Origin: Chlorobium sp.
GTDB taxonomy: Bacteria > Bacteroidota > Chlorobiia > Chlorobiales > Chlorobiaceae
NCBI GenBank assembly: GCA_005843825.1
Contig: SZXX01000034.1
Location: forward strand, 1-57,571
Direction: 5' to 3'
Length of the DNA stretch: 57,571 bases
Shown one piece after another: positions 5,388-43,735 of this stretch. Below the pieces are notes generated by a model. That model worked only from the letters and a program-made list of their open reading frames with translations, did no database searches and was not told the DNA's origin. Each line of letters starts with the position of its first letter. Positions within the stretch are counted from its first letter, which is position 1. A program made the translations under genes and the position numbers.

Positions 5388-6263
5388 ATGGAGCATGGTC
5401 CCGGAAAAAAACCGGAATGGCTGAAAATCAAGTTAACTGCGGGAGCATCCTTTGCCTCTACTAAACAGTTGTTGAACCGTCAGAGCCTTCATACTGTCTG
5501 CCGCTCAGCACTGTGCCCCAACCTGCACGAGTGCTGGTCGCGGGGTACCGCAACATTTCTGCTCCTCGGCAACATCTGTACACGCACCTGCAGGTTCTGC
5601 GCAGTTGGAAAGGCTTCGAGCCCTCCCCCGCCTGATCCACTGGAACCCGAAAATATCGCTCTTGCCATCCAATCCATGCAGTTGAAGCATGCCGTCCTGA
5701 CAAGTGTAACCCGTGACGACCTCCATGATGGAGGTGCAGAGCATTGGGTCAAAACCATCCGTGCTATCCGCTCACTCAACCCGGTTGTCACCATAGAGTG
5801 CCTTATTCCGGATTTTCAGGCCAAGGAAAACGCCCTTGACCTGCTTATGGCCGAATCACCTGATGTACTCAACCATAATATTGAAACGGTGCCATCCCTT
5901 TACTCCAGAGTACGCCCGCAGGCCAATTACCAGGCATCACTGCTGCTCTTGCATCGAGCCAAACAGAAGCATGGCCTCAATACAAAATCAGGCATTATGG
6001 TTGGTATGGGCGAAACCGCCGAAGAGGTTACAGCTTCGCTACACGACCTTGCCCGTCACGGCTGCGATATGGTAACCATCGGTCAATATCTGCAGCCATC
6101 CTCAGAACACATGCCTGTTTCCCGTTATATCACCCCGGAGGAATTTGAGCAATACCGAATCATTGCCGAAGCTGCAGGCTTTAAGCATGTGCAGTCAGCG
6201 CCCTTTGTGCGAAGCTCATATCATGCAGAGGCTTATGCCGGTAACACTGAAACACTTTCTTAA
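5388..6263 (+). CDS. lipA: Lipoyl synthase
   Basis: A radical-SAM enzyme that inserts two sulfurs into protein-bound octanoyl groups to make lipoamide. Both cluster sites are complete: the auxiliary [4Fe-4S] motif C38-x4-C43-x5-C49 ([12 protein letters not shown]) and the radical-SAM motif C64-x3-C68-x2-C71 (CTRTCRFC). The C-terminal FVRSSYHAE contains the RSSY motif whose serine ligates the auxiliary cluster. The 291 residues are normal for the family. The gene starts within 80 nt of a dispersed repeat, lacks a strong ribosome-binding site and is followed 20 nt later by a membrane-protein gene, probably co-transcribed. Confidence 0.96.
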
Positions 6264-6283
6264 CCTATAACCACACTTGAGTA

Positions 6284-6862
6284 ATGGAACTATCTGTACC
6301 AGTGATGATTTATGCCTATTGGGCGTTTGCTTTTCTTGTCGGCTTTATCTTTTTCAAAAAGGATATTCTCTCCTTCAACCGGGAATTCGACACCCGGAGA
6401 ATCGCCCTCCTCGTTGCATCTCTCATTATTGTTGCCCTTAATGCGTGGGTCTATTCCCATTCAACAACAGACGGAGGTCGCAAGCTTGATATGCTCACTG
6501 TTCTGGTATTCACTTTTGCCAACGGCATTGCAGAAACCTTCATGTTCTATGCTGTTTTCCAAATCGGCATAGCCCTTGCGGGCAGGTTCACTCAAAACTC
6601 CTGGGCACTCTTCATCACCGGCATTATCTTTTTCATGGTCTACAGCGGCCTTATCCACGGCCTCTTCTGGATCAATATCCTGCCGACCCATGTAGTCCAG
6701 ACCAGCCCTTACAAACCATTTTTCATGCCTGTTCAGATGCTGATAGCCTGCAGCTGGGCCTTAAACTTTTTCTGGTACCGCGACATCAGAATCGTAGTCA
6801 TTCTCCACTCCATGATCGATTTAACCATGGCCCTGAACGTGAAATTCTCTCTTTTCCAGTAA
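6284..6862 (+). CDS. Integral membrane protein, possible degenerate CPBP-family member
   Basis: A 192-residue protein with about six hydrophobic helices. It carries segments placed like the three CPBP (CAAX protease/bacteriocin-processing) motifs: AETFMFYAVFQ in the EExxxR position, FFMVYSGLIHGLFW in the FxxxH position, and VVILHSMIDLTMAL in the HxxxN/D position. Motif 1 has a single Glu and lacks the usual second Glu and Arg, so protease activity is uncertain. It follows lipA by 20 nt and may be in the same transcript. No experimental function can be assigned. Confidence 0.55.
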   Translation: MELSVPVMIYAYWAFAFLVGFIFFKKDILSFNREFDTRRIALLVASLIIVALNAWVYSHSTTDGGRKLDMLTVLVFTFANGIAETFMFYAVFQIGIALAGRFTQNSWALFITGIIFFMVYSGLIHGLFWINILPTHVVQTSPYKPFFMPVQMLIACSWALNFFWYRDIRIVVILHSMIDLTMALNVKFSLFQ

Positions 6863-10566: not shown

Positions 10567-13404
10567 TTACCAGTGGAGCTGCTCCTGAATCAGCTCAAGC
10601 AGCTCGCTTTTCCTGACTGGTTTGGTAATAAAGCTGTCGCAACCAGCCTCTGTGGCTTTTTCTTTGTCCTCTTGTGAGGTAAATGCTGACTGGGCAATAA
10701 CTGGCAGGTCGGGACGCTGCTGTTTGATGAGTCTTGTTGCCTCAAAACCGTTCATTACAGGCATTTTAATGTCCATGAGCACCAGATTGATCTCCGGATG
10801 ATGCTGAACGAGTTCAACTGCCTCCCAGCCGTTAACGGCACAAATAATGGTAAAGTTTTCGCCTTTCAGGTTGCGTTTAAGAAGCAGGGTGCTTACCTCA
10901 TCGTCTTCGGCTATAAGAATGCAGAGATGCGGAAGTGTTTCTGGAACTTTTGCCTCCGGCAAAGCAGGAGAAATGCTTTTTGGTGCATTGACAGGGTTAT
11001 ACTGCAGTGTGAATGAAACGTTAGTTCCAGTCCCATCTATTGATTCAACCTTGATTGTGCCGCCAAGCATGGTAACGAAGGATTTTGTAATGCTCAATCC
11101 GAGCCCTGCTCCTTCGTAGCCTCTGGTTAAGGTGTTGTCTACCTGGCGGAAACGATCAAAAACTTTATTTTTCATGTCATGAGGAATACCAATGCCTGTA
11201 TCGATAACATAAAATTCAAGATTTTCATCCTGTTTTGTATAACCGAAATCAATACCGCCCTTCGTGGTGAATTTAAGGGCATTGTTGACAATATTTATCA
11301 AAATCTGATTCAACTTTCCGTTGTCGGTTTTGATGAGGCTTTCGCTGTCCGAAAGCCCTTTGGAATAAGTCAAACGCAATCCTTTAGAGAGTGCGTTAGG
11401 CTTGAAAAACGCGTAGATGTCTTCCAAAAGCTTGTTGAGCGGTGTTTCACTGATTTCAATGCTTGTCTCTTTGGCATCAATGCGTGAGATATCAATCAAC
11501 TCATTAATCAGGTTCAGCATACGGTGACCGCTTTTCTGTATGAGTTCAATGTACTCTGCCATTTCCTCACCAGAGAGGTGAGGCTCTTTGAGCAGTTCCG
11601 AAAAGCCGAGAATGCCATTCATCGGAGTGCGTATTTCGTGGCTTATATTAGCAAGAAATGCTGATTTCAGGCGGTCGCTCTCTTCTGCTTTTTCTTTGGC
11701 TGCAATTAGCTCAGCCAAATATGTTTTCTGTTCAGTGATATCCTCTTTGACTGCCACAAAATTGGTTATTACACCATTTTTATCAATTATAGCCGAGATA
11801 ACAGCTGTTTCCCAGAAGAGTTCATCATTTTTCTTTTTGTTTTGGAACTCTCCTCGCCAAATCTTTCCTGAAAGGATAGTTTCCCAGAGATCTTTAAAGA
11901 CTGATTCTGGCGTCAGACCTGATTGAAGAATCCGTGGATTTTTACCTTTAGTTTCTTCTATCGAGTACCCGGTAAGCACTGTAAACGCCGGGTTGACGTA
12001 TTCAATATTGCCGAGGGGATCGGTAATAACAACAACAGCAGGACTTTGCTCAACAGCAGTACTGAGTTTTACAAGTTGATTTTCAAACAGTTTACGTTCA
12101 CTGATATCACGGAGTAAGCCGATCACTCCGGAAGAACCGTTGTCATTGAAATATTGCGAATGAATTTCTGCCTGAATGAGTGAACCGTCTTTTTTCTTGT
12201 ACTTAAACTCAAGAACCTGATTGGTCAATTGACGCTTCATGGCATCAGTGAAGATTGCAATAGCCCTTGGAACTTCCTCTTCTGCCATGTATTCGAAAAA
12301 AGCATGTCCAAGTAACTCATCCGGCTTATAACCGGCAATTTTTTCAACTACTGGTGAAACATAGGTTATCTCTCCAAGGGAGTTGTTAACAAAAACCACC
12401 TCGGAAATTTGTTCTGTAATGGAACGGAACATCCTTTCACTTTCACGCAATGCCTGCTCGGCGTGCTTGCGATCACTGATATCACGGATCAAGCCGATCA
12501 TTCCGGAGATCTCCTGATCCTGATAATATTGCAGATGAATTTCTGCGTCAAAGAGGGTGCCGTCTTTTCTCTTTAACTTGAATTCGAAGATCTGGTTCGT
12601 TGTTTTATACTGCAGGGTTTTGTTGAATACTTGTAATGCTTCAGGAATATCTTCTTCCAGCAAGTAGATGGAAAATGGGTGTCCAATGACCTCATGGGGC
12701 AGATAGCCGAAAAGTTTCTCTACAACAGGTGAAACATAGTTTATGGTTCCGAAGGAGTCGATAACAAATACTTCATCTCCCATCTGTTCAGTTATGGAAC
12801 GAAAGTTTCGTTCACTTTTGCGCAATCCTTCTTCAGTTACCTTCTGAGAGGTAATATCTGAGAGAATAATCTGGCATGCATTCTCAGTATCACTTACAGC
12901 AGCTTCAATGTGAAAGGTGCGAATGGATTGTTCAGAGTGAACAGTGTAGGGAGTAGAGGCCAAAAGCTTCACCTCACAGTTACCAGGCACTCTCGTAGAG
13001 CATACTTTTTGGAGCATGTTATCAAGCACCAGCGTGTCCTCTGGCTCAAGAAATGACATAAAGTGCATACCTTGTAACTGTGAGCGATCAACTCCAAGTA
13101 TTTTGGCTGCAATCAAGTTTGCCTGCTGAATCTTACGATCCCGATTCAAAGTCAAATACCCAACTGGCGCACAGTCATAAAGCTGGGTGTATTTTCCAAG
13201 ACTTTCTTCCAGCTCAACCCTGGTGCGAGCCAGCTCTTCCTGCTGCATTTCAAGTTCGAGCTGGTGCACCTCAAGCTCATGAACAACCCTGAGGATCTCT
13301 TCGGGTGAAGAAGAAGTGCTAAGACGTTTTTGCTTAAGTTTCTTTTCAGCAATAGATCTTAACTCAGATGAACTTGGGGTTTTGCTTTTCTGCTTTTTGG
13401 CCAT
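10567..13404 (-). CDS. Hybrid sensor histidine kinase with four PAS domains and a receiver
   Basis: A cytoplasmic signalling protein with no transmembrane helix. Counting from the upstream TTG at 13428, the order is: coiled coil with HQLELEMQQEELA (about 45-80), PAS domains at about 75-190, 205-322, 330-446 and 452-568, HisKA with phospho-acceptor H597 in FLANISHEIRTP, HATPase_c (about 695-810; NNALKF, DTGIGI, GAGLGLSI), and a REC domain (835-953) with D886 in LVLMDIKMPVMNG. The ATG at 13404 is favoured because GAGG lies 14 nt upstream. PAS 2 and PAS 3 resemble each other closely, suggesting internal duplication. No DNA-binding output or adjacent regulator is present, so the partner is unknown. 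Its N-terminal module matches the kinase at the window end. Confidence 0.92.
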   Translation of the reverse strand: MAKKQKSKTPSSSELRSIAEKKLKQKRLSTSSSPEEILRVVHELEVHQLELEMQQEELARTRVELEESLGKYTQLYDCAPVGYLTLNRDRKIQQANLIAAKILGVDRSQLQGMHFMSFLEPEDTLVLDNMLQKVCSTRVPGNCEVKLLASTPYTVHSEQSIRTFHIEAAVSDTENACQIILSDITSQKVTEEGLRKSERNFRSITEQMGDEVFVIDSFGTINYVSPVVEKLFGYLPHEVIGHPFSIYLLEEDIPEALQVFNKTLQYKTTNQIFEFKLKRKDGTLFDAEIHLQYYQDQEISGMIGLIRDISDRKHAEQALRESERMFRSITEQISEVVFVNNSLGEITYVSPVVEKIAGYKPDELLGHAFFEYMAEEEVPRAIAIFTDAMKRQLTNQVLEFKYKKKDGSLIQAEIHSQYFNDNGSSGVIGLLRDISERKLFENQLVKLSTAVEQSPAVVVITDPLGNIEYVNPAFTVLTGYSIEETKGKNPRILQSGLTPESVFKDLWETILSGKIWRGEFQNKKKNDELFWETAVISAIIDKNGVITNFVAVKEDITEQKTYLAELIAAKEKAEESDRLKSAFLANISHEIRTPMNGILGFSELLKEPHLSGEEMAEYIELIQKSGHRMLNLINELIDISRIDAKETSIEISETPLNKLLEDIYAFFKPNALSKGLRLTYSKGLSDSESLIKTDNGKLNQILINIVNNALKFTTKGGIDFGYTKQDENLEFYVIDTGIGIPHDMKNKVFDRFRQVDNTLTRGYEGAGLGLSITKSFVTMLGGTIKVESIDGTGTNVSFTLQYNPVNAPKSISPALPEAKVPETLPHLCILIAEDDEVSTLLLKRNLKGENFTIICAVNGWEAVELVQHHPEINLVLMDIKMPVMNGFEATRLIKQQRPDLPVIAQSAFTSQEDKEKATEAGCDSFITKPVRKSELLELIQEQLHW

Positions 13405-39427: not shown

Positions 39428-40366
39428 TTGGTGTTAAAAAGGTCGTGCTGGCAATTACGCCCCGATAGTCAGGTCTTAGTTAAAAAGAAAGATACCGTGC
39501 CTAATTATTTCTTCAGAAATAAACTCCATCTCTCGATACTATCCGCGCTTGGTGCTGCGAGTTGGTCTATGTATTTCAATATCCCTGTAAATGGATGGGC
39601 AATCGTAACAGTCTTCCTGCTGACCTTTTCAATATATCAGGACAACCGGCTCACCGACAATATCGAAGATGCAACCAACGACCCCGAAGGCCTGAAAAGT
39701 GCCCTTAAGAACCAGAATCTTATCACTTACGTAACCTTCTACCTGGTTTCCTTCATCTCACTGATTATCGCTTTTCAATTTGGTCAATCGGCATTCTGGA
39801 GAACGGCACTTATCATTATCATAGGTTTTCTGTATAACCACAAATGCTTTCCTGCGTCTCTGTCAAAACGTTTGAACGGTGCCCGTCGCTTGAAGGATAT
39901 ATACATCATAAAAAACCTCACACCTCCCCTCGATTGGGCAACCGCACTTATCTTTCTTCCCCTGATTTTCGAAGGTCATTCACTTTCACTCAAGGCCTGG
40001 ATCTGCTGGGGATATATGTTTATCTGCGCCTTTTTTATAGAGGTAATGTGGGACATGCGCGACCGCCGGGGCGACCTCTTGAGCGAAATCAAAACCATTG
40101 CCAACACCTTGTCTTTTCCGCATACAAAACAGTTTCTCATCATCATAAGCCTTATCTCGGGCGTTCTCCTCTTTTATTTTACCTTCACAGATATTCTTCC
40201 AGCCTCCACCTATTTCCTTCTGGTAAATAATGCTGCCGTTATAGTCATCGCGAGCATGTACGATGAAAACAAAGAGTCTTTTATGCGCAAAATCAGTGAC
40301 TTCACGATTGTTCTTGCCTCAGCTCTCTTTCTTTCCTTCGGCTTAATCGCCTTTTTTTCGCACTAA
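39428..40366 (+). CDS. UbiA-superfamily prenyltransferase-like membrane protein
   Basis: A roughly 290-312-residue protein with about eight transmembrane helices. The two Asp-rich motifs of UbiA prenyltransferases are present: QDNRLTDNIEDATNDPEG (near residues 71-88) and WDMRDRRGD. Such enzymes move a prenyl chain onto an aromatic ring, a chlorophyllide or glycerol phosphate. The first motif reads NxxxDxxED, as in the broader family rather than UbiA itself, so the acceptor is unknown. The start is uncertain: TTG at 39428 or GTG at 39497, the latter preceded by AAAGAAAG. It converges with the hydrolase gene, the stops overlapping by 4 nt. Confidence 0.78.
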   Translation: MVLKRSCWQLRPDSQVLVKKKDTVPNYFFRNKLHLSILSALGAASWSMYFNIPVNGWAIVTVFLLTFSIYQDNRLTDNIEDATNDPEGLKSALKNQNLITYVTFYLVSFISLIIAFQFGQSAFWRTALIIIIGFLYNHKCFPASLSKRLNGARRLKDIYIIKNLTPPLDWATALIFLPLIFEGHSLSLKAWICWGYMFICAFFIEVMWDMRDRRGDLLSEIKTIANTLSFPHTKQFLIIISLISGVLLFYFTFTDILPASTYFLLVNNAAVIVIASMYDENKESFMRKISDFTIVLASALFLSFGLIAFFSH

Positions 40367-41136
40367 CTCTTCTCCTGCTCCCTTAGCCAACTGCTTACAT
40401 ACTCTGCGACTTCCTGCCAGCCAGGTTCTCCAACAACCCAGTGGGCATGGTTCTTGAACTCCTTGTATGTAGATACCGCTTTATACTTTTTCGCAATTTT
40501 GCGGGCGACTGATGCCGGGGTGATTCGGTCCTGAGAACCAGCAATGACGAGAACCGGGCAGGTAACCCTCGACTCATCGACGCTTGATGCCCGCGAAGGG
40601 TCAAAAGGCCAGTAACCGATTTCTGCAGCTGCCCTGCCGGATTCATAAACGAGTTTGTTGTAGATTTCCCACTGCTCCTTTTCCGTCATCAGATGCAGTA
40701 TCGAAAAGACAACTTCACTGAATTTCAGGCGAAATGGATTGTTCCAGAACCCCCACTTTGTCTGCATGCTCCAGAAACTCTTGACAACAGAGGGGGTAAG
40801 AGCCATGATACCGGCAGGCGATGCAGGAGAGAGCAGAACAAGTGCTTTTGCCCGTTTGCGGGCGCCTAGCATCTGGGCCAGAAGCCCTCCCATGGAGTGG
40901 CCCATCACAACAGGAGGTTCGTCCAGTTGGGAGATTTCATGTTCGAGCTGTTCAGCGTAATCAAGAAGAGAGGTTCTCCCTAAATCAGAGTGTGGGACAC
41001 CACAGGGATTCATATTGTGATAGAGCAATGTCGGCACAATGCAGCGGTACCCTTCAGCTTCAAACTTTTTCTGATAGTTCTCCCAGTACCACGGACCACC
41101 AAACATTCCGTGAATCATGAAAATCGTTTGAGCCAT
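40363..41136 (-). CDS. Alpha/beta-hydrolase fold protein
   Basis: A 257-residue hydrolase. It has an oxyanion-hole HGMFGG motif, the nucleophile elbow GHSMGG (the catalytic Ser), a late acidic residue in VLVIAGSQDRITPAS, and the final His in FKNHAHWVVGEPGW. The ATG at 41136 is preceded by a strong GGAGGAGG, better than any upstream start. The sequence is closest to lysophospholipase/esterase-like or haloperoxidase-like members; the substrate is unknown. The upstream region contains the first of two 123-bp direct repeats. Confidence 0.85.
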   Translation of the reverse strand: MAQTIFMIHGMFGGPWYWENYQKKFEAEGYRCIVPTLLYHNMNPCGVPHSDLGRTSLLDYAEQLEHEISQLDEPPVVMGHSMGGLLAQMLGARKRAKALVLLSPASPAGIMALTPSVVKSFWSMQTKWGFWNNPFRLKFSEVVFSILHLMTEKEQWEIYNKLVYESGRAAAEIGYWPFDPSRASSVDESRVTCPVLVIAGSQDRITPASVARKIAKKYKAVSTYKEFKNHAHWVVGEPGWQEVAEYVSSWLREQEKS

Positions 41137-41201
41137 TTTACCCTCCTCCCGATAACATAACCAGTGTAAAAAATCAGCCACTCTGCCAAAACTAACGGGA
41201 C

Positions 41202-41324
41202 GCTCATGACTATGTGTACATACCACATCAGCCACAAGTTAAAAGCAAAACTGGAGCACCCCGGCTAATTATAACCAAAACGCGGATTACTTCATTGAAG
41301 GAATTTATTCAGTCGAGCATCACC
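41202..41324. repeat. 123-bp direct repeat, left copy
   Basis: This copy runs from gctcatgactatgtgtacat to gagcatcacc. A second copy in the same orientation lies at 43026-43147. The two align with only scattered substitutions and one 1-nt gap, and weaker similarity continues for about 40 nt. Between them lies one gene, the subtilase-like protein. Confidence 0.88.
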
Positions 41325-41560
41325 CAGCTTTGGGCTCAAAAACAAGTCTGTTGTTCGGGTAGAACGGGAATAACAAGTGATTGACCGCAAGCACCACTGC
41401 CTTCCAGAAGTAAGACGGCTACCATAACCATAAGATAGAAATTAGGAAAAAGCGAAACTATTGTCCGTATTGCATCGATGGATGGACGCTGTAAAATAAG
41501 GGTTTTTAATACGCTATATTGCTGAAGATTAGAAGAAGTACAAAAACCATTGAGGATTTT

Positions 41561-42937
41561 ATGAACAGTGCTAATAAATACTGGCTTTGCCTTGTGTTTG
41601 TCTTGTCTTTCACGCCGGTTTCTTTTGCTGATTATAAGACTGATATCGGCTATGCCGATCTGAAAGCTTTGCTGGGTGCAAGTATGCCGACTGGTGCTGG
41701 TGTAAAAGTAATGCAGGTTGAAGCTGGTGGAACTGTTTATGCACCGAATACCACGAGCACGCAGTTTGCAGACAAAACCTTCCGCTTCCCTTGTGCTGCA
41801 AGCATTTCGCCGTCTGGTCATGCAACCTGGGTCGGTTCACTTTTTTATGGTGCCGGTTCAATGGCTCCTGGTATTCGTACTATTACCAGTTATGAATCCT
41901 CTGACTGGATGAAAAGCCTGTTCCACCCTTTGGTTTCAGTACCGCCTAACGGTAGTCGGATTGTCAACCAAAGCTGGGTCGGTAACGGTAATAATACATC
42001 ACATACGGGGATCATTTTGCGCTTGATGGATAGACAGGTGCAGCGGAATGAGCTTATTCAGGTCGTTGCCATGGGCAACGGGCCTGGAGTTAATGCTTTG
42101 TTGCATAGCGCCTATAATGTTATTGCGGTGGGTAAATGTAGTGGCAATCTTGATTATGGCTCCAAACCTGTTGATCTGGTCTATAGAGCAGGACGTACCC
42201 GACCGGATGTCGTAGCTCCAGAATCGACTACCAGTGCTGCTGCGCCGGAAGTAGCCGCCACGGCTGCCTTGCTGGTTGAAACAGGGCATAAAGGCGCCTT
42301 ACTCCTTTCCAGGAGTTCTGCAATGGTCACCGGTATCGGAACTGTTTACAATGCCGAGCGGGCCGCAACCATTAAAGCGGCACTTATGGCCGGGGCAGAT
42401 CGGGTAACACACAATAGCCCTGGCAAAGGTGATATCACCGATTACCGCAGTGCCGGCCACCAAACCAATAATGGCCTTGATGAGCGTTTTGGTGCGGGTC
42501 AGGTTAATGTGCTTCACAGCTATCAGATTATTGCAGCTGGTGAGCAAAGCAGTCTGGAAAATGGTGGCGTCAATGCGGGAGTGATTGGCTTGAACGGCTT
42601 TGATTATGAAAAAGCCTTTGGCGGGTTTTTAAGCAGCAATAAGACCGCAACCTATAAATTTCATGCAACCACTGATTCAAAATTATCGGCATCTTTGGTA
42701 TGGAATATGAATGTTACCAATGATGGGACGTTACGCACAGGGTTGCCAAACCTGAACCTTGAATTATTTGATGTCACCAGCCAAACCATATCTGCCTTTT
42801 CTTCGAGCACTCACGATAATACTGAAAATATCTGGGTTGATTTGGCAGTGGGGCATAGCTATGAACTGCTTGTTAAGTCTGCCGAAGCGAATGATTTCAG
42901 TTGGGACTATTCATTAGCCTGGCATATCAGCCATTAA
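41561..42937 (+). CDS. Secreted subtilisin-like (S8) protein with Asp-to-Glu in the triad
   Basis: A 458-residue exported protein with an N-terminal signal peptide (YWLCLVFVLSFTPVSFA, cleavage after FA). The subtilase blocks are recognisable: GAGVKVMQVEAGG with E54 where the catalytic Asp should be, SGHATWVGSLFYG with H87, VVAMGNGPG with the oxyanion-type N173, and TTSAAAPEVAATAALL with S225. A C-terminal beta-rich domain (about 330-458) looks like a P-domain/jelly-roll add-on. Start: the ATG with GAGGA 4 nt upstream, preferred over an upstream TTG. The gene is bracketed by the 123-bp direct repeats, and its base use suggests import. Confidence 0.78.
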   Translation: MNSANKYWLCLVFVLSFTPVSFADYKTDIGYADLKALLGASMPTGAGVKVMQVEAGGTVYAPNTTSTQFADKTFRFPCAASISPSGHATWVGSLFYGAGSMAPGIRTITSYESSDWMKSLFHPLVSVPPNGSRIVNQSWVGNGNNTSHTGIILRLMDRQVQRNELIQVVAMGNGPGVNALLHSAYNVIAVGKCSGNLDYGSKPVDLVYRAGRTRPDVVAPESTTSAAAPEVAATAALLVETGHKGALLLSRSSAMVTGIGTVYNAERAATIKAALMAGADRVTHNSPGKGDITDYRSAGHQTNNGLDERFGAGQVNVLHSYQIIAAGEQSSLENGGVNAGVIGLNGFDYEKAFGGFLSSNKTATYKFHATTDSKLSASLVWNMNVTNDGTLRTGLPNLNLELFDVTSQTISAFSSSTHDNTENIWVDLAVGHSYELLVKSAEANDFSWDYSLAWHISH

Positions 42938-43025
42938 TCGCTCTGCAGTCTGCCCTGAAATCAAGGATAGCAGTTTAAAACAGGAAATTCTCATGAAGGC
43001 TCTAACTACAGGTGTGAAACACTTG

Positions 43026-43147
43026 GCTCATGACTATGTGTACATACCACATCAGCCACAAGTCAAAAGCAAAACTACTGCACCCCACCAATTATAACCA
43101 AAACGCTTATTACTTCATTAGAGCAATTTATTCTGTCAAGCATCACC
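43026..43147. repeat. 123-bp direct repeat, right copy
   Basis: Matches 41202-41324 over gctcatgactatgtgtacat to aagcatcacc. It lies 88 nt after the stop codon of the subtilase-like gene. The copies are 1824 nt apart. Confidence 0.88.
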
Positions 43148-43181: not shown

Positions 43182-43216
43182 GAAAAATAGAAACCCCGGT
43201 TCAGCTCCGGGGTTTC
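43182..43216 (-). terminator. Rho-independent terminator of the TPR-protein gene
   Basis: A perfect 10-bp stem, gaaaccccgg (43190-43199) and ccggggtttc (43207-43216), with a 7-nt loop. Read on the minus strand it is followed by a T-rich run (ctatttttcg), which fits termination of the TPR gene. Confidence 0.82.
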
Positions 43217-43300: not shown

Positions 43301-43735
43301 TTACCCCTGATTTTTATTGATCTCTTGTTCTGCAGCACCGTCACCGGATAAACCCGCTCTTTTAAAGTCTGATTGAGCACCCTGAATGTCTCCAAGAGCG
43401 GTTTTGGCCAAGCCTCTGATTTTAAACCCATGAGCATCTATAGGAGTTGGATCGACTTCAATAGACTTTCTGAAATCTGCTTTTGCTGATTCTGTTGAAC
43501 CGAAAGCGAGCTCTGAAACACCTCGATTATAGTATGCCTTTGAAAGATCATCTGAGCCAAGTTTTGGACTGCTTTCAATTGCCTTTGTGAAGTTCTCTAT
43601 GGCTTCCTGATACTGACCGGCCTTCAACTGGGCTTCTCCGGCACTCAAAGAGGGGCTGTTATGTGCATAAACAATAGTACTGGCAAGTATCACGTTTATT
43701 GCTGCAAGAGAGAGAAAACGAAAAGAGTTTTTCAT
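43301..43735 (-). CDS. Secreted TPR-repeat protein
   Basis: A 144-residue exported protein. A signal peptide (MKNSFRFLSLAAINVILASTIVYA) precedes about two to three tetratricopeptide-like repeats (AGEAQLKAGQYQEAIENFTKAIESSPKL, SKAYYNRGVSELAFGSTESAKADFRKSIEVDP, KIRGLAKTALGDIQGAQSDFKRAG). AGGGG precedes the ATG. TPRs mediate protein contacts; no partner is encoded next to it. A clear terminator follows at 43182. Confidence 0.85.
   Translation of the reverse strand: MKNSFRFLSLAAINVILASTIVYAHNSPSLSAGEAQLKAGQYQEAIENFTKAIESSPKLGSDDLSKAYYNRGVSELAFGSTESAKADFRKSIEVDPTPIDAHGFKIRGLAKTALGDIQGAQSDFKRAGLSGDGAAEQEINKNQG

Follow-up and report, generated by a model that had tools for sequence, protein, structure and literature searches.

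Probable illegitimate insertion of a subtilase-like gene, with duplication of its target DNA, in a Chlorobium chromosome

A 1.7-kb stretch of DNA from a related Chlorobium, carrying one gene for a subtilase-like exported protein, was probably placed by illegitimate recombination into the gap between an alpha/beta hydrolase gene and a TPR gene of Chlorobium sp., leaving a 123-bp duplication of the target as direct repeats on its two sides. The window, that is, the whole stretch of 57,571 nucleotides that was analyzed, is one complete contig (C19) and holds both repeat copies (hereafter R) together with the gene; the comparison genomes, one per species, are mostly draft or metagenome-assembled. 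Features of the locus are given below in window positions, the borders of the insert being uncertain by about 5 to 15 bp.

40363 to 41136, minus strand: alpha/beta hydrolase gene, left flank (Pfam Abhydrolase_6/_1); the TPR gene adjoins it in relatives.
41197 to 41221, plus strand: REP-like motif GGGACGCTCATGACTATGTGTACAT whose hairpin has decayed, where the left R copy starts (motif search of genus genomes).
41202 to 41324, plus strand: left R copy, target DNA, joining the hydrolase side as in G027.
41325 to 43025, plus strand: inserted segment of about 1.7 kb, with ends that match L115; in G027, G041, G078, G055 and G049 these flanks do not enclose it.
41333 to 41373, plus strand: remnant of a doc/Fic toxin gene, comprising its last codons and stop (similarity to L115).
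41488 to 41560, plus strand: upstream (promoter) region with ribosome-binding site, travelling with the gene; 93% identical in G027 and partly shared with G043.
41561 to 42937, plus strand: gene for an exported subtilisin-like (Peptidase_S8) protein of 458 amino acids (PF00082 above cut-off).
42938 to 43012, plus strand: donor 3′ flank of the subtilase gene (similarity to L115).
43026 to 43147, plus strand: right R copy, joining the terminator/TPR side as in G027.
43190 to 43216, no strand assigned: hairpin resembling a terminator (GAAACCCCGG..CCGGGGTTTC), situated after R and before the TPR gene and conserved (comparison with relatives).
43301 to 43735, minus strand: TPR protein gene, right flank (Pfam TPR), in the same place in relatives.

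The two R copies (123 bp on the left, 122 bp on the right) lie in the same orientation and are 88.6% identical across 123 columns, with one 1-bp gap. When searched against the entire 2.55-Mb genome the pair scored E = 4e-39, and the further copies for which the preliminary description had proposed a search were not found, the genome holding two copies of the full unit and no third. The specificity of the match is also apparent within the window, where the R pair agrees at 57/61 positions as compared to 33/61 for the next best ungapped 61-bp match. No Rfam element exceeded its gathering score in either copy, and R folded no better than shuffled sequences. The bases GGGAC (41197–41201) precede the left copy and are missing from the right one. 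A tandem-like 360-bp direct repeat elsewhere in the window (12092–12826, 70% identity) is unrelated to the R/subtilase locus.

The preliminary description had read the repeats as framing a single exported, subtilase-like protein gene with its own ribosome-binding site, and each element of that reading was borne out. The only open reading frame between the R copies starts at the ATG at 41561, behind a GAGG ribosome-binding site, and its product begins with an apparent signal peptide (MNSANKYWLCLVFVLSFTPVSFA). The Pfam Peptidase_S8 profile (PF00082) matches this product at 28.2 bits against a cut-off of 21.8, a weak score yet above threshold, and aligns only from position 107; all seven of seven homologues match the same profile. 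When the alignment was read by eye, H87, N173, and S225 were invariant in 7/7 homologues. The protein shares with peptidase family S8 the PF00082 match, a conserved TTSxxxP serine region, and H87, but differs in that the position of the usual catalytic Asp is apparently occupied by Glu54 (also read by eye). An AlphaFold model of the 458-residue protein was unusable, with a pLDDT of 30, and a sequence search of solved structures (PDB) returned no match. The reading frame is intact in seven genomes with dN/dS of approximately 0.2 to 0.37 across pairs, which indicates that the gene is kept as a protein; judged from sequence, its product is most likely an exported serine-protease-like protein.

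The site before insertion is represented in a related species, G027, where the hydrolase gene is followed by a single R (6449–6566 of L014, on contig G027:C39; 83–85% identical to the window’s two copies) and then by the terminator hairpin and TPR gene, with no insert. This is the empty site with one repeat copy that the preliminary description had proposed to seek among relatives. The hydrolase gene adjoins the TPR gene directly in G041, G078, and G049 and lies next to it across a contig break in G055; all four lack both the insert and the first part of R, so that the 5′ part of R is an insertion common to the window and G027 and its 3′ part is ancestral intergenic DNA. The terminator-like hairpin stands at the same place in all five relatives, none of which keeps the subtilase gene between these flanks; the preliminary description had named a gene and flanks kept together in relatives as counting against its reading. 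R is local target DNA, in part REP-like and in part native intergenic sequence, and not the end of a cassette.

G027 does possess the subtilase gene, at the opposite flank of this hydrolase gene (L014, 4273–5649; hydrolase 5626–6459), in the position taken in the window by methyltransferase, TetR, and UbiA genes. There it abuts the hydrolase 3′ end and replaces its last codons, giving an altered C terminus. This placement is the one point in favor of a tandem duplication of a G027-like subtilase-hydrolase-R block, after which one of the two copies of each gene was lost. However, what borders the insert in the window is doc and L115-type DNA rather than hydrolase sequence or the left flank of G027, and the hydrolase C terminus cut by the G027 gene is a derived state. 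The insert flanks effectively refute a duplication from a G027-like state, which we regard as scarcely credible.

Both ends of the insert point instead to L115, a locus of the Chlorobiaceae MAG G074 in which the subtilase gene lies beside doc and ABC-F genes. At the left, 41341–41379 is 92% identical over 39 bp to L115:362–400, the end of an intact Fic/DOC open reading frame that terminates approximately 380 bp upstream of the subtilase gene; doc tails similar to the window remnant occur in 10 further genomes of the genus. At the right, 42944–43012 is 87% identical over 69 bp to L115:2154–2222, between the subtilase and ABC-F genes. Because the insert ends in a doc tail and an L115-type 3′ flank, the incoming DNA is taken to have been a chromosomal stretch and not a tidy element. 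The donor differed from L115, since no source of 41380–41487 (∼108 bp) was identified in the genomes compared. The left junction falls within a short stretch where R (ACCGGCTTTTTGG) and the doc tail resemble each other.

The subtilase gene is the only gene recognized in the insert, which contains no recognizable transposase and no terminal inverted repeats (best inverted match of 8, compared to a shuffled mean of 7.8, and equally good in 278 of 500 shuffles). An integron gene cassette was considered and rejected, as the integron integrase model TIGR02249 had no match over its cut-off in the window genome (G000), G027, or G074, no attC-like fold was present, and the gene comes with an upstream region of its own. 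A further possibility is a nonautonomous transposon mobilized by a transposase that makes long target duplications, given that insertion sequences of the IS1549/IS1634 type are flanked by long, variable direct repeats of 8 to 514 bp (PMC2266710), a range that includes 123 bp, and that the location of the subtilase gene varies from species to species. In contrast to those elements, the window insert lacks a transposase and terminal inverted repeats; moreover, the limits of the shared segment vary (41488–42942 with G027, others with L115), leaving no fixed ends, and the gene has a stable home in a sister group. Transposition of this kind is accordingly rated very unlikely.

The gene is present in six of the genus genomes examined. 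No homologue was found outside this genus in other genera of the phylum sample, and plasmid and phage collections yielded no match. In G013 and G029, the subtilase gene has an ABC-F gene as its neighbor and a DUF4136 lipoprotein gene upstream; a DUF4136 gene is likewise upstream in L116, and in G043 the ABC-F gene is approximately 6 kb away. No subtilase gene is present at the ABC-F locus in the window genome or in G027, G041, or G049. Gene order places the home of the subtilase gene at the ABC-F/DUF4136 locus, where it is stable in a sister group.

Synonymous divergence separates the history of the gene from that of its surroundings. Between the window and G027, dS is 0.08 to 0.09 for the subtilase gene versus 0.35 to 0.88 for seven neighboring genes, and between the window and L115 it is 0.149 versus 1.7 for ABC-F. 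Within the donor group, L115 and G043 give concordant values of 0.49 for the subtilase gene and 0.43 for ABC-F. The discordance between the two genes shows a horizontal move of the subtilase gene from the L115 side. The locus therefore combines an empty site in relatives, donor-like flanks, and synonymous divergence at odds with its neighbors, as expected of a horizontally acquired insertion. The smaller divergence of the window copy from G027 (0.09) than from L115 (0.15) suggests, from dS values, that the copy in G027 was received later, perhaps from the lineage of the window.

The duplication of R can be placed relative to the same events. The copies differ at 13/119 positions (11% divergence). 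Similar values separate the window from L115, at 13% in the 3′ flank and a subtilase dS of 0.149; judging from some 120 bp of R sequence and 69 bp of flanking sequence, the duplication would be about the same age as the insertion. With G027 as outgroup, the copies lie at about the same distance from its single R and show five and seven private changes, plus 16 differences from G027 that they have in common. These balanced private changes and shared differences indicate that one local R was duplicated after the split from G027 and that neither copy looks imported. The borders of insert and repeats coincide within about 5 to 15 bp at both ends, for which reason insertion and duplication are treated as what was presumably a single event. 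The preliminary description had offered an old cassette insertion or a duplication of flanking DNA around a newcomer. An insertion with flank duplication around a newcomer accords with the empty site in G027, the foreign flanks, and the discordant synonymous divergence; its age is established only in relative terms, as younger than the split from G027, and the notion of R as a cassette end did not hold.

The same counts bear on a Campbell-type integration, in which a circular DNA carrying an R homologue and the subtilase gene recombined with the chromosomal R, so that the copies differed from the start. This would account for diverged repeats with no need for age, and the length of R suffices for homologous recombination as a rare event. 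Set against it are the balanced private changes (five and seven) and 16 shared differences, by which neither copy appears foreign; the occurrence of the full R in the window genome and G027 only, and beside the subtilase gene in the window only, among genomes searched; and the lack of a plasmid or phage match to the gene. We consider such an integration improbable.

The favored account, illegitimate insertion, may be set out as follows. A chromosomal 1.7-kb stretch from a related Chlorobium-group species would have entered the lineage of the window, extending from the doc tail through the subtilase gene with its promoter to just before the ABC-F gene. Illegitimate recombination would have inserted it between the hydrolase and TPR genes, and the joining would have copied the 123-bp target onto both sides. 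RecA-independent end-joining or template-switch repair with a 123-bp fill-in, not transposition, is the presumed route, and the simplest interpretation is an illegitimate join whose fill-in duplicated 123 bp. Unequal recombination between the R copies would be expected to delete the gene and restore the empty site.

To our knowledge, a 123-bp direct target duplication is unusual for a simple illegitimate insertion; in classical illegitimate integration, recipient DNA is lost or replaced. The locus nonetheless shares with such integration foreign DNA devoid of a mobility gene, short similarity at one junction, and no fixed ends, and differs in its target duplication on both sides. Illegitimate and homology-facilitated illegitimate integration are described in Acinetobacter and Pseudomonas stutzeri (as cited in PMC3784515). 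Transformation-generated merodiploidy (Johnston et al. 2013, PMC3784515) also couples duplication to integration of exogenous DNA, but its duplications span approximately 100 to 900 kb and form between existing repeats, whereas the window duplication is 123 bp and had no pre-existing repeat pair. The locus is probably an ordinary case of gene acquisition that is unusually readable. It offers a relatively dated entry of a single gene into a chromosome with no recognizable mobility gene, one in which the empty site, the donor-type locus, and the duplicated target can each be seen, and shows how one-gene transfers among green sulfur bacteria can occur.

The start of R introduces a possible enzymatic contribution. 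Its first 25 bases belong to a dispersed motif, GGGACRYTCATGACTNNNTGTACTT, found at 19 sites with at most one mismatch in 65 genus genomes (reversed control, 0). Copies lie near RAYT-type Y1_Tnp genes in the window genome, G027, G007, and G041; the Y1_Tnp gene on G000:C39 is closest to the NCBIfam RAYT model, though below its cut-off. The intact G007 motif folds as a hairpin (z of −4.6) and the form in R does not. The family is palindromic, dispersed, and associated with RAYT-type Y1_Tnp genes, in keeping with REP/RAYT systems. The right R copy starts inside this RAYT-associated motif, so an enzyme may have been involved, and a role of the REP-like motif in the insertion is possible from its position.

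In the explicit form of this idea, a single-strand nuclease of the RAYT type would have nicked the motif where R begins, after which repair from the nick captured donor DNA and copied R; the 123-bp duplication would then follow from cleavage at the motif. Favoring it are the coincidence of R with the motif (the right copy beginning 5 nt inside), the proximity of motif copies to RAYT genes in the four genomes named above, a whole RAYT gene in G077 at the opposite end of this hydrolase gene, and 165-bp direct repeats that start at the motif around a radical-SAM operon on G027:C20. However, the motif copy in R has lost its hairpin, and long direct repeats are also found away from the motif. The body of the G027:C20 repeat is moreover dispersed with the motif in G045, so that this pair may represent two independent element insertions. 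REPs are known as insertion targets, and RAYTs have been described (PMC1525189, PMC3733652); the window locus resembles these in its insertion within an intergenic region bearing a REP-like, RAYT-associated motif, but the insert is not an IS, and the motif is decayed and has few copies per genome. RAYT-assisted capture is unlikely on balance, and illegitimate joining remains the preferred reading. If the REP motif was involved, domesticated RAYT nucleases would gain a testable role in gene capture.

The RAYT gene in G077 has inverted GGGGACGTTGTT arms and lies between UbiA and the hydrolase gene (L121, G077:C300, 3134–7782), and the hydrolase-TPR gap of that genome contains a two-gene insertion resembling 2-oxoacid oxidoreductase; this neighborhood is thus an insertion-prone hot spot. 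The G027:C20 repeats (L043, 254–418 and 3543–3697, 77% identical) enclose a radical SAM/SPASM maturase gene and genes for a pair of paralogous small proteins rich in Cys that may be peptide precursors. In the window genome itself (L042, G000:C39, 2990–6880), a RAYT gene and a VapC-like gene lie between direct motif copies, with a 149-bp direct repeat (93% identical) close by. These motif-framed gene blocks on G027:C20 and G000:C39 are no more than a lead, since carrying the motif was the reason for selecting the loci, and repeats of this sort are found in its absence as well. The broader proposal, that RAYT-associated REP motifs in Chlorobium are entry points that capture foreign genes or operons, duplicate 120 to 165 bp, and give reversible blocks, is correspondingly doubtful and offered as a long shot. 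In a same-genus relative (L052, G007:C51, 3856–3960), the motif occurs as an inverted pair approximately 105 bp apart, an arrangement like that of a REPIN.
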